A stretch of DNA of 64,000 nt from Glaciihabitans sp. INWT7 (GTDB lineage: Bacteria > Actinomycetota > Actinomycetes > Actinomycetales > Microbacteriaceae): positions 2,670,419 through 2,734,418 of the forward strand of contig NZ_CP043653.1 in NCBI RefSeq assembly GCF_014217685.1. Reading direction: 5' to 3'. The notes under the pieces were generated by a model that saw nothing but the letters and a program-made list of their open reading frames with translations, ran no database searches and was not told the DNA's origin. The translations under genes and the position numbers were made by a program. Shown piece by piece: positions 56,395-60,296 of this stretch (its first letter is position 1; each line of letters opens with the position of its first letter).

Positions 56395-57387
56395 CTACTT
56401 CGCGCCCACAGTCGCCGAGGCGTTCGACTCGTACGACGTGTTGGTCGACTCGAAGAAATTGACCAGCTGGAGGGTGTCGTTCGCGGTCGCCATCCACTTG
56501 GCCGGGTTTGTCACGTTGTACTCGGCTTCGAAGCCGAGCTCCTCGAGACGACGATCCGCCAGGTACTTGACGTACTGGTTGATGTAGTTGGCGTTGAGAC
56601 CGAGGATGCCACCCGGGAGCAGGTCGCGGTTGTACTGCTCCTCGAGCTCCACCGCATCCAGGATCATCTGCTTGATCTCGGCCGCGAACTCCTCAGTCTG
56701 CAGGTCGGGGTTCTCCTCGAGCACGGTCAGGATGAGGTTGATGCCGAACTTGAGGTGAAGGGACTCGTCGCGCACGACCCAGTCCATGAGGGACCCGAAG
56801 TTGCGCAGCAGGTTGCGCTGGCGGAACGACAGCGCGACCATGAAGCCAGAGTAGAACCAGAGGCCTTCGAGGATCACGTTGTACGCCACGAGGTTGCGTA
56901 CGAAGTCCTTCTTGCCCTCCGTGGTGGTGATGTCGAGAGTGTTCTCCGTCATGCGACGGATGTACTTGATCTCGAACTCTTCCTTCTTCGCCATCGAGGG
57001 GATGTCGACGTGCGAGTTGTACGCCGCCTCGCGGTCGATCGGGAAGGTCTCGAGCACGTACTCGAACGACATGCAGTGGTTGGCCTCTTCCCACATCTGC
57101 TTCGCAAGGTAGATGCTGCACTCCGCCGCGTTCACGTAGGGGTACACGCCGAAGGCGAGCGCCTTGTTCACGAGCAGCTCGTTCGGGTTGAAGTAGCTCA
57201 TGAGGAAGGTGACCGCGTGGCGCTCTTCATCCGTCATCTTCTTGAAGTCGGCGATGTCCTCGCCGAGCTGGATCTCGTTCGGAAACCAGGTGTTCGCGAC
57301 GGCCTGGTCGTACAGGTCCATCGCCCACTGGTAACGGATCGGTTTGAGGAGCAGCCCCTCTTGCAGGCCGGTTCCGAGAATTCCCAT
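56395..57387 (-). CDS. nrdB: Ribonucleotide reductase R2 (class Ic-like, Phe at radical site)
   Basis: 330-residue beta subunit. Metal ligands by alignment with class I R2: Glu in NPNELLVNKAL, EEANH, Glu in ILEGLWFYSGF and RDESLHLKFG. The residue four after the EEANH His, normally the radical Tyr, is Phe (EEANHCMSF). Phe there with Glu at the first ligand is the pattern of Chlamydia-type class Ic enzymes with a Mn/Fe cofactor. ATG 57385-57387 gives the usual MGILGTGLQEGLLL start. It follows nrdA and the small tail ORF. Confidence 0.9.
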   Translation of the reverse strand: MGILGTGLQEGLLLKPIRYQWAMDLYDQAVANTWFPNEIQLGEDIADFKKMTDEERHAVTFLMSYFNPNELLVNKALAFGVYPYVNAAECSIYLAKQMWEEANHCMSFEYVLETFPIDREAAYNSHVDIPSMAKKEEFEIKYIRRMTENTLDITTTEGKKDFVRNLVAYNVILEGLWFYSGFMVALSFRQRNLLRNFGSLMDWVVRDESLHLKFGINLILTVLEENPDLQTEEFAAEIKQMILDAVELEEQYNRDLLPGGILGLNANYINQYVKYLADRRLEELGFEAEYNVTNPAKWMATANDTLQLVNFFESTNTSYESNASATVGAK

Positions 57388-57515: not shown

Positions 57516-57596
57516 CTACTGGCAGCTCTCGCACTGCAGGTCGTCCATCGGATCGACCGGAACTTCGTATTCGAATACCTGGGTGTCGTAGTTCAC
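57516..57596 (-). CDS. 26-residue ORF encoding the NrdA-type CxxC redox tail
   Basis: GTG 57594-57596, one codon after the nrdA TAG and in the same frame, runs to TAG 57516-57518. AGGAGAG lies exactly six bases before the GTG. The peptide is acidic and ends DPMDDLQCESCQ. Class I R1 proteins normally end in such a Cys pair, which re-reduces the active site; the NrdA here has no Cys at its C-terminus. It could be a separate trans-acting tail, or be reached by readthrough of TAG. No standard gene name is known to me. Confidence 0.6.
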   Translation of the reverse strand: MNYDTQVFEYEVPVDPMDDLQCESCQ

Positions 57597-57599
57597 TGT

Positions 57600-60140
57600 C
57601 TACTCTCCTGACTTGGGAGCGAGCCCACCGAAGCCGAAGCCGCGCTTGGGTGCCGGAGCCTCAGAAGTCGGGCTCGCCGGAGCGGAGGCGATCGGCGCGA
57701 CGCGGGCGGACTCTACGGCCGGAGCGGCAGCCGGTCCCGCAGAGCCGAAGCCCTTACGCACAGCCCCGCCTGCTCCGCTGCCGATCTGCTCCGACTTGTT
57801 CACCTTCACGGTCGACTGCTCGGCCGTATGGCGCGGCTTCATGTGCAGGTAGTAGGTGGTCTTGACGCCACGCTCCCACGCCCCCATGTAGATATCCATC
57901 ATGTCGCCGAGGTCACGCGTCTCGAGGTACATGTTGCGGCTGATCGACTGGTCGACCCACTTCTGGGCCCGTGCCGCCACCTCGAGGAAGGAGTACGGCG
58001 AGAGCTGGAAGCTCGTCTTGTAGGTGGCCTTGATGTGATCCGGAATGGCCTCGATGCCCTGGATATCGCCCTGGCTGCGCAGGATCGACTCACGGGTGGA
58101 GTCCCAGATGCCGAGCTCCTGAAGGTCGGACACGAGGTTGCGGTTCACCTCGAGGAACTTGCCGTTGGAGGTCGCGCGGCTGAAGATCTGCGAGAACTGC
58201 GGGTCGAGACCCGGAGTCGTGCCGGCGACGAGACCGATGGATGCGGTGGGCGCGATCGCCATGAGCGTCGCGTTGCGCATGCCGCCCTTCACCTTGGTGC
58301 GCAGAGCATCCCAGTCGAGCCGCGTGGTGCGGTTGACCTCGATGCTCGTGCCGCGGTCGGCCTCGGTGAGCGCGATCGAGTCGAACGGCACGAGGCCCTT
58401 CGACCAGCCCGATCCTTCGAAGTTCGCGTAGGACCCGCGCTCCTGCGCCAGGTTGGCGCTCTCGTCGATCGCCGCATAGGAGACGTGCTCCATGATCTCG
58501 TCGATCAGGTCGTAGGCCTCTTCGCTCTCGTAGCTGAATCCGAGACGCTCCACGACATCCGTGAAACCCATCACACCCAGTCCGACGGCGCGGTTCTGCT
58601 GGTTCGAGAAGTCCGCCTCCTTCACGGAGGAACGGGTGATGTCGATGAGGTTGTCGAGCTGCCGCACGGCGAGGCGAGCGCTCTCTTCGATCTTCGCCCA
58701 GTTCATCGCGAGCACCTGACCCTCGCCGGTCAGCGAGTCGAGGTGGCGCGACAGGTTGATCGACACCAGGTTGCAGACGGAGACGTTGTCCTCATCCTGC
58801 GGGAGGGTGATCTCGGTGCAGAGGTTGGAGAGGTGGATCGTTCCCGTGTTGTTGTTGAGCGCACGGAGGTTGATCGTGTCTTTCCAGCACAGCCACGGGT
58901 GGCTGGTGGTCTGCAGGGAGATGAGGATCGACTTGAACTGCTCGCGAGCGGTGATCTTCTTGAACATGTGCATCTCGCCGGCTTCGGCCTTGGCGACGTA
59001 CTCGTTGTACTTCGCCGAGAATTCCTTGCCGTAGAGCTCGTTGAGATCCTGCACCTCGAGCGGGTCGAAGAGGTACCAGTCGTCGTCATTCTGCACGCGC
59101 TTCATGAACTCGTCCGAGATCCAGACGGCGGTGTTCGCGGTGCGGGTGCGGCGATACGGGTCTCCGGAGTTCTGGCGCAGGTCGAGGAACTCGGGGAAGT
59201 CGAGGTGCCAGTTCTCCATGTAGAAGCAGAGGGCGCCGAACTTCTTGCCACCGCGACTCACCGCCCGCAGGATCGAGTCGATCGTGTGCATGAACGGGAT
59301 CGGCCCGGTCGAGGTGGTGTTGTTCGAGCGGATCGGCGAACCCTGGGCGCGCAGCTTGGTGACACTGAGGCCGATGCCGCCGGTGCCCTTGGTGAGCCAC
59401 ATCACATCGCGGGTGGTCTTCGCGATGTGCTCCATGTCATCCTGCATCTCCATGACGAAGCAGTTGGCGAGCTGAGGGTAGATGGTGCCCGCGTTGACGA
59501 GGGTCGAGCCCGCAGCGATGTATTCGAGGCTCGACATCTTCTCGTAGAACGCGATGGCGTGTTCGGTGGGGTTTGCCTCGTTGAGCGAGAGGCCCATGGC
59601 GATGCGCATCCAGAAGTACTGGGGAACCTCGAGGGCGTCGCCGTTGCGTCCCTTGATGCCGTAGCGGTTGTTGAGGGTGACGACGCCGATGTACTTGAGC
59701 AACTCGTCATGCGATGGCTCGAGCGCGTTGGCCAGTGCGTCGAGGTCGAAGAGCTGAGTGAGTCGGGAGTCGAGGAGAAGTTCCTCGACGCCACGGGTGA
59801 CGTTCGCGGCGAAGTGGCTGGCGTGGAGGGCCTTCAGCTCTTCTGCAGTCTCGTAGTCGCCGAGAACGCGCTTGTAGATGGTCTTCAGCAGCAGTCGCGC
59901 GGCCACCGTGTCGAATGCCGGGTCGTCCTTGACGTTCTGCAGGGCGACCTGGATGACCGCCTCGTCGAGCTGCTGGGTGGTGATGCCGTCGAACAGGGTC
60001 AGCTCCAGCTCACTGGCGATCTGCGTGACCCAGGTGATGTTCTCGTCGAGACCGGCACTGGCGTGCTCGATCGCGAGGTTGATCTTGTTCGCGTCGTACG
60101 GCTCTCGCTGCCCATTGCGCTTGACTACGGTGATTGCCAC
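57600..60140 (-). CDS. nrdA: Ribonucleotide reductase R1 (class I) lacking its C-terminal Cys pair
   Basis: 846-residue alpha subunit that reduces nucleoside diphosphates. N-terminal ATP-cone (VVKRNGQREPYDANKINLAI). Active-site Cys residues in QLANCFVM and SNLCTEI (Asn-x-Cys-x-Glu triad), and the radical-path Tyr pair in KTTYYLHMKPRH. After residue 770 there is an Ala/Pro-rich linker ending APKSGE, then TAG. The redox Cys pair expected here is on the next small ORF. GTG 60138-60140 with GAGGGGAAGC upstream is the start. Confidence 0.94.
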   Translation of the reverse strand: MAITVVKRNGQREPYDANKINLAIEHASAGLDENITWVTQIASELELTLFDGITTQQLDEAVIQVALQNVKDDPAFDTVAARLLLKTIYKRVLGDYETAEELKALHASHFAANVTRGVEELLLDSRLTQLFDLDALANALEPSHDELLKYIGVVTLNNRYGIKGRNGDALEVPQYFWMRIAMGLSLNEANPTEHAIAFYEKMSSLEYIAAGSTLVNAGTIYPQLANCFVMEMQDDMEHIAKTTRDVMWLTKGTGGIGLSVTKLRAQGSPIRSNNTTSTGPIPFMHTIDSILRAVSRGGKKFGALCFYMENWHLDFPEFLDLRQNSGDPYRRTRTANTAVWISDEFMKRVQNDDDWYLFDPLEVQDLNELYGKEFSAKYNEYVAKAEAGEMHMFKKITAREQFKSILISLQTTSHPWLCWKDTINLRALNNNTGTIHLSNLCTEITLPQDEDNVSVCNLVSINLSRHLDSLTGEGQVLAMNWAKIEESARLAVRQLDNLIDITRSSVKEADFSNQQNRAVGLGVMGFTDVVERLGFSYESEEAYDLIDEIMEHVSYAAIDESANLAQERGSYANFEGSGWSKGLVPFDSIALTEADRGTSIEVNRTTRLDWDALRTKVKGGMRNATLMAIAPTASIGLVAGTTPGLDPQFSQIFSRATSNGKFLEVNRNLVSDLQELGIWDSTRESILRSQGDIQGIEAIPDHIKATYKTSFQLSPYSFLEVAARAQKWVDQSISRNMYLETRDLGDMMDIYMGAWERGVKTTYYLHMKPRHTAEQSTVKVNKSEQIGSGAGGAVRKGFGSAGPAAAPAVESARVAPIASAPASPTSEAPAPKRGFGFGGLAPKSGE

Positions 60141-60246: not shown

Positions 60247-60296
60247 GACCACTATATAGCGGGCCTCCGACAAAACGGTAACCCCATATGTAGTGG
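60247..60296. promoter_or_regulatory. Two NrdR boxes and nrdA promoter
   Basis: Sequences like the NrdR consensus (core CwAtATaTwG) occur at 60247-60262 (core CACTATATAG) and 60281-60296 (core CCATATGTAG), 34 bp apart. On the minus strand TTACCG (60276-60281), 17 bp, TATATA (60253-60258) form the probable promoter, overlapped by the first box. NrdR-ATP/dATP would repress it. Confidence 0.65.

Follow-up and report, generated by a model that had tools for sequence, protein, structure and literature searches.

Cells make deoxyribonucleoside triphosphates (dNTPs) de novo solely through ribonucleotide reductase (RNR), whose swinging cysteine tail is counted as belonging to the enzyme. Class I and class II reductases re-reduce their active site through C-terminal cysteines. 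In a split class II enzyme this is done by NrdJb, a separate chain of 229 residues (PMC4520616). The same paper describes NrdJa and NrdJb, from Pseudomonas aeruginosa and other Proteobacteria, as a catalytic and a redox-cysteine chain made from separate genes of one operon; NrdJb mediates thiol-disulfide exchange and is needed in vivo (PMC4520616). Here we describe an operon of Glaciihabitans sp. INWT7 (Microbacteriaceae) in which the class I catalytic gene nrdA and the radical-generating subunit gene nrdB are separated by a gene of their own for the redox tail, only 26 residues in length. It lies in a stretch of 64,000 nucleotides (contig NZ_CP043653.1, positions 2,670,419 to 2,734,418), referred to below as the window, to which plain coordinates refer. 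We consider it highly probable that, in Microbacteriaceae with class I NrdAB, electrons reach NrdA in trans by way of this tail, made as a separate and diffusible peptide.

As in NrdJa/NrdJb, the redox-cysteine part has its own gene. Unlike that system, the enzyme is not an adenosylcobalamin-dependent class II barrel with a large redox chain; the window NrdA matches class I models and has its own nrdB, and the detached tails mostly measure 21-40 residues as against 229 for NrdJb. Unlinked, NrdR-boxed or viral and plasmid copies of NrdJb are not mentioned in the accessible part of that report (PMC4520616). Class I NrdA does occur as two associating polypeptides in Aeromonas phage Aeh1 and in other phage RNR genes-in-pieces, where insertion of the homing endonuclease mobE cut the gene within a phage (PMC3653736, PMC7344957); here, the cut frees the redox tail only, is old, family-wide and under selection, and the tail genes have spread. 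The cysteine-rich domain of NrdJd offers a third likeness, in that the redox tail of one subunit can reduce another, although that domain is still covalently part of the enzyme (PMC5704485). No description of such a free-standing class I tail was found in the literature searched, which lacks most subscription journals. A split RNR with a separate redox chain is already known in class II; new, as far as seen, are the size of the tail, its occurrence in class I, the existence of a second gene behind NrdR boxes, and the dissemination of tail genes on phages and plasmids.

The features of the operon that bear on this reading are as follows.

57600..60140, minus strand: nrdA, encoding a class I RNR catalytic subunit that lacks a C-terminal cysteine pair (NF005101, 5im3, PF02867)
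57603..57794, minus strand: C-terminal linker of NrdA, 64 residues of low complexity containing the repeats RKGFG and KRGFGFGG (sequence)
57609-57603, minus strand: AGGAGAG, resembling a ribosome-binding site, within the last nrdA codons and 6 bases 5' of the tail GTG (sequence)
57602-57600, minus strand: nrdA stop codon TAG, after the NrdA end ...FGFGGLAPKSGE (sequence)
57516..57596, minus strand: tail gene, GTG start (57596-57594), 26 residues MNYDTQVFEYEVPVDPMDDLQCESCQ, detached redox tail (open reading frame (ORF), relatives, pN/pS)
56395..57387, minus strand: nrdB, radical-generating subunit, starting 128 bases past the tail (nearest structure 1syy)

The window NrdA scored 1631 bits against NF005101 (PRK06539), over the cut-off. 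In the alignment to 5im3, its nearest solved structure, the cysteine columns NCFV, SNLC and VCNL were kept together with TTYYL, which we take to be the active site and the radical-transfer tyrosine pair. The last 86 residues, from TTYYL to the end KSGE, contain no cysteine, and the chain has no C-terminal cysteine pair of its own; the single codon ACA separates the nrdA TAG from the tail GTG, with the tail in the nrdA frame. The sequence-only reading had described this arrangement, with the NrdA end, the 26-residue frame and the AGGAGAG before its GTG, and each of these held when checked on the letters. The same kind of repeat linker precedes the fused tail in many NrdAs of sister families, and its repeats are possibly a docking site for the tail.

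The same reading had proposed a comparison of NrdA C-termini in related Microbacteriaceae. When same-genus genomes and 80 named relatives were compared, a separate tail preceded nrdB in 87 of the 90 loci with a readable nrdA 3' end; the 90 count the window copy and some same-species duplicates and leave out L012, L013 and L045, which ended too early at that point. Merging identical junctions from these loci and a later census gave 97 distinct nrdA-tail junctions, in which the tail start was taken as the first ATG, or else GTG/TTG, at or past the nrdA stop. An own start codon was present at all 97 (ATG in 88, GTG in 9). In 18 it overlapped the nrdA stop by two bases (ATGA type), and in 45 it began on the last base of that stop (TGATG or TAATG type), overlaps that are typical of coupled translation; two tails lay 60-61 bases downstream of nrdA. 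A sequencing error or recent mutation that placed a false stop in an intact gene would account for the single TAG between the parts in this assembly, and homologues in which the TAG was absent everywhere had been named beforehand as its signature. What was found instead was a stop kept as TGA (54 junctions), TAA (30) or TAG (13), in differing frames and across the family, and we assign such an artefact a negligible probability.

Relative to nrdA, the tail lay in the same frame at 13 junctions, in the second at 5 and in the third at 79. Recoding, with stop readthrough in some species and frameshifting in others, would join the tail to NrdA; the in-frame window tail behind one TAG and the common offset of 79 of the 97 junctions are what could be said for it. 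A readthrough or frameshift gene, however, keeps a fixed frame and needs no start at its second part, whereas here the offsets 0, +1 and +2 all occurred, with a start codon each time. The two distant tails, the unlinked tails, a tail upstream of nrdA and the case of Naasia lichenicola, whose sole tail found is unlinked (both described below), also oppose recoding, which we regard as scarcely credible. Readthrough of the stop, which the sequence-only reading had offered as one of two possibilities, was thus rejected, 84 of the 97 distinct junctions being out of the nrdA frame. The other possibility, a separate peptide acting in trans, received strong support from the genomics, through the start codons, the three frames, the unlinked copies behind NrdR-like boxes, the genome with an unlinked copy only and the phage in which the tail precedes nrdA; we infer its redox function.

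In a 17-codon core of the tail (71 distinct operon cores), the ratio of nonsynonymous to synonymous polymorphism (pN/pS) was 0.29 in its own frame versus 1.57 and 2.50 in the shifted frames, and the overall range for the tail was 0.24-0.29; judged by these ratios, the core is under purifying selection. The peptides had no match at an expectation value (E) of up to 10 in NCBIfam (five peptides) or Pfam (three peptides), and in PHROGs (three peptides) only matches at E 0.034 and 0.21, none firm, HMMER filters being liable to lose weak matches of so short a query.

The tail also accompanies NrdA. When 398 Microbacteriaceae genomes were searched with an exact tail DNA pattern, 177 contained it, including all 170 genomes with a strong NrdA match (best E <1e-100); none of the 221 tail-less genomes had a strong NrdA match.

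The window genome (G000) contains the tail pattern in three copies: the window copy, one unlinked gene, and the end of a 107-residue protein. The unlinked gene and the promoter of the nrdA operon share a pair of sites resembling NrdR boxes.

G000:C1:318425-318505: unlinked tail gene MDNDNSFIGGYAVPVDPMDDLQCDSCQ, preceded by a ribosome-binding site and followed by a terminator-like hairpin
60282..60296, minus strand: NrdR-box-like site 1 of the nrdA operon, CCACTACATATGGGG (promoter scan)
60250..60260, minus strand: NrdR-box-like site 2, GCTATATAGTG, overlapping the likely -10 region (promoter scan)

A second RNR as the owner of the unlinked tail was considered and rejected; the window NrdA was the single PF02867 protein found in the genome. 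Sixty copies from 25 genomes were hand-picked among the matches listed and, with the earlier loci, gave 45 copies not beside nrdA. A double NrdR-like box (ACACTACATGTAGTG ... GTTATATAGTG) stood upstream of 30 of the 45 and was lacking from the other 15; box-pair scores were 20-26 for the former, 0-15 for the latter and at most 17 in 900 shuffles, the consensus having been derived from these same promoters, with the unboxed copies and the shuffles as controls. The ORFs beside 14 unboxed copies (n=36) matched 19 phage families, including integrase, excisionase, minor tail and spanin, and no phage-family match occurred among 58 ORFs beside 24 boxed copies. The unboxed copies L268 and L290 lie on contigs of plasmid-record size, and the exact pattern found just two copies in genome G139, one unlinked and boxed, the other on a contig of plasmid size.

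At nrdA itself, the box pair stood at offset 36-37 in 61 of the 68 promoters read; these include the window genome and duplicates, and under the rule used here, laxer than that for the unlinked copies, 62 of the 68 pass, L091 doing so at a different offset. Alignment to the 16-bp box gives spacers of about 16 bp for nrdA and about 17 bp for the unlinked tail gene. NrdR box pairs are usually 15-16 bp apart, and NrdRs bind with spacers of 14-17 bp (PMC12051234). Both promoters have the two boxes of an NrdR regulon, and an nrdR gene is present in the genome; NrdR may control the unlinked tail gene as well as the nrdA operon. The 107-residue protein with the tail motif at its end (L102:1216-1539; G000:C1:787718-787774) has no Pfam match, stands between LPD29 and HicA-like genes and is probably on a mobile element.

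The three loci with no tail between nrdA and nrdB (L039, L072 and L091) belong to genomes with exactly one tail each, unlinked and boxed (pattern up to one mismatch). The DNA behind nrdA in Naasia lichenicola (L039, G013) has a hairpin, beyond which nrdB begins. In this genome NrdA was the only PF02867 protein and the only class I/II reductase found, and the unlinked copy was the only tail found. Because of this, the tail of N. lichenicola must, on the genome sequence, reach NrdA as a free peptide, unless its NrdA manages without a tail.

The detached peptide is homologous to the tail that NrdAs of sister families carry on the same chain, with end motifs such as CPVDPMERLQCESCQ; VACPVDPMERLQCESCQ, for example, stands at the extreme C-terminus of one such protein. 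The two forms differ in that the tail has a separate gene here and in that the first of the three cysteines of the fused form (CPxDP...CxxC, the CxxC pair being common to both) has mostly given way to another residue, usually Val, in detached bacterial tails. In a first set of loci from the order (n=18), 17 tails were fused and one, in G749, followed a frame break; in a further set from the order and class (n=22), 20 were fused, one (L329) was cut by a contig end and one (L336) had no tail. At E up to 1, a tail profile matched each of the 36 NrdA-bearing genomes of the order, within the NrdA frame in 35 and after the frame break in G749; second matches in these genomes had E of at least 0.12 and lay in frames of other proteins. 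The G749 locus (L112) has a fused-type NrdA with the tail in another frame past a stop and with no obvious start, which may be a sequencing error or an independent break.

Among 366 genomes drawn from the class, 25 had a tail-profile match at E up to 0.01. Besides G000 and G156, 20 of these lay in frames of at least 850 codons, those of G977 and G863 were near contig ends in fused-type sequence, and that of G941 was weak and partial; in G156, a family genome without NrdA, the match lay in a 16-codon frame and did not reappear when the fetched DNA was scanned for the motif. In a tree of about 170 C-terminal NrdA residues, 82 distinct rows from the same genus and the named relatives fell into one clade (support 98/94); rows were labelled by source, the bootstrap had not settled, and the 82 include L045, the three loci without an operon tail and one row, L074, titled Cellulomonadaceae. 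Because the NrdAs of the family form a single clade and sister families carry a fused tail, a single split is most likely, dating from before the diversification of the Microbacteriaceae that have NrdA.

Tail genes were also found outside bacterial chromosomes. A scan of viral contigs yielded at least 120 stretches with a tail, and more exist; a second pattern, requiring the third cysteine, gave 22 matches, 16 of them new, so that 136 viral loci were read. A stop directly followed the final Gln in 135 of the 136, none lay in a frame of more than 147 codons, and two ran off the piece. An nrdA or nrdB gene was present in the fetched DNA of 5 loci. In phage L189 the order is tail, nrdA (with the tail-less end ...APRKGFGFKSAN), nrdB; in L244, L361 (near-identical to it) and L362 the tail TAA overlaps the nrdB ATG as TAATG; and in L207 the tail lies shortly upstream of nrdB. 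The viral NrdA of L189 (9955-13317), which the free tail gene precedes, has an intein inserted at the cysteine of SNLC|TEITLP.

Neighbours were taken from 80 of the at least 120 first-scan loci. They included a terminase large subunit upstream of the tail in 16 of 75 cases, a portal gene downstream in 12 of 72, a holin of the commonest family upstream of 12 tails, polymerase genes, and DNA-polymerase exonuclease neighbours in 7. One fixed phage locus for the tail was rejected, as the several neighbour types imply several sites. Tails were read on the letters, where no feature is annotated, in Pontimonas phage phiPsal1 and in Clavibacter phages CMP1 and CN1A (the tblastn E-values for named phages being weak for so short a query), and MDDFDTIDGFACPNDPADLVSCESCQ was found in Pseudanabaena phage Pan2 (L355:2500-2580) in a frame other than that of the annotated ORF. 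The third cysteine of the fused form was kept in 23 of the at least 120 first-scan tails and in the 16 added by the pattern requiring it. Three-cysteine tails such as those of L131, L154, L244, L361, L362 and Pan2 may point to hosts that form a second lineage with detached tails.

Matches on plasmids came from 19 records of Clavibacter, Leifsonia and Gryllotalpicola, all three of them Microbacteriaceae. The record of one plasmid peptide of 33 residues with the tail motif (L354:4962-5063) calls it "ribonucleotide-diphosphate reductase subunit beta", a name that seems to have been transferred in error. From their location and conservation, we would guess that the phage and plasmid copies raise dNTP supply.

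Several observations weigh against a diffusible tail that NrdA depends on. Seven of the 177 tail-bearing genomes, all of them fragmented assemblies, had no NrdA match (4) or only a weak one (3). G014 and G015, the other two genomes besides G013 that lack an operon tail, have a back-up class II reductase with a Cys-rich end of its own, and are weaker evidence for action in trans than G013 because of that enzyme. Three fused tails whose letters were read matched the profile weakly (E 0.01-0.1). The NrdA of G1018, from another family of the class (L336, 62% identity), ends without a cysteine tail, and a profile search of its genome for a tail gene gave nothing better than E 1.2, nor does G1018 appear among the 25 matches from the class draw, which may or may not have included it; judging from this genome, a tail-less NrdA may work in some other way. 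Few viral tails, finally, have an RNR gene nearby, and most of those with scanned neighbours adjoin non-RNR genes (terminase, portal, lysis genes).

Two explanations draw on these points. Thioredoxin or NrdH might reduce the tail-less NrdA directly and leave the peptides as relics or in another role; the G1018 enzyme fits this, and small reductants can reduce RNR active sites directly (PMC4520616). Relics are nevertheless hard to reconcile with purifying selection, with co-occurrence in 170 of 170 genomes and with NrdR-like promoters, and we hold this explanation to be very unlikely. Alternatively, the main role of the free peptides might be to regulate or inhibit RNR or to titrate thioredoxin, and not to act as an obligatory shuttle, the phage copies then being possible host-takeover peptides; extra copies on phages and plasmids, often away from RNR genes, and unboxed copies near phage-type genes would suit such a role. 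Yet NrdA has no other tail, the peptide bears the motif found in fused tails of sister families, and the boxed, unlinked gene has the promoter type of nrdA, as fits a positive partner; a regulator or titrator seems improbable, if less so than direct reduction.

Two further features of the window operon concern its protein products. The listed nrdA ORF runs from 60203; because many relatives' matches begin only at residue 13-24, the GTG at 60140 is the likelier NrdA start. The nearest solved structure to NrdB is 1syy, a Chlamydia (class Ic) protein. NrdB EEANHCMSF aligned to EEAVHTHTF of that protein, and Phe probably stands where the radical Tyr would be expected, as in the Chlamydia R2c type, at the aligned position that we presume to be the radical site.

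Taken with the preferred reading, a peptide acting in trans, the following mechanism is suggested. The C-terminal redox tail of NrdA would have been cut off in one ancestral event and become a separate peptide. It would probably be translated by termination-reinitiation or from its own ribosome-binding site, because the tail start usually overlaps or adjoins the nrdA stop. Its CxxC would take electrons from a thioredoxin-type protein and, acting in trans after every turnover, reduce the disulfide in the active site of the tail-less NrdA, the GFGFGG linker of NrdA being one candidate site at which the peptide may bind. An unlinked copy under NrdR boxes could supply extra peptide when dNTP synthesis is derepressed, and the phage and plasmid copies would presumably sustain the NrdA of the host or phage while these elements replicate.

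A broader reading, to which we give about an even chance, is that the tail has become a diffusible redox subunit and that its level determines how much RNR turns over, that cells raise this level through a dedicated NrdR-controlled gene, and that numerous phages and plasmids, unrelated to one another, each bring a version of about 26 residues to drive the tail-less NrdA of the host or their own. The natural detachment of the tail makes two questions testable, namely whether the tail must be tethered and whether its supply can control RNR. It also presents a conserved, essential-looking peptide that is absent from the searched profile libraries, as well as a tiny viral gene for which a metabolic role is plausible. 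If these readings are true, an essential enzyme of these bacteria would depend on a tiny exchangeable part, and a peptide-sized auxiliary metabolic gene would have been missed by annotation pipelines.

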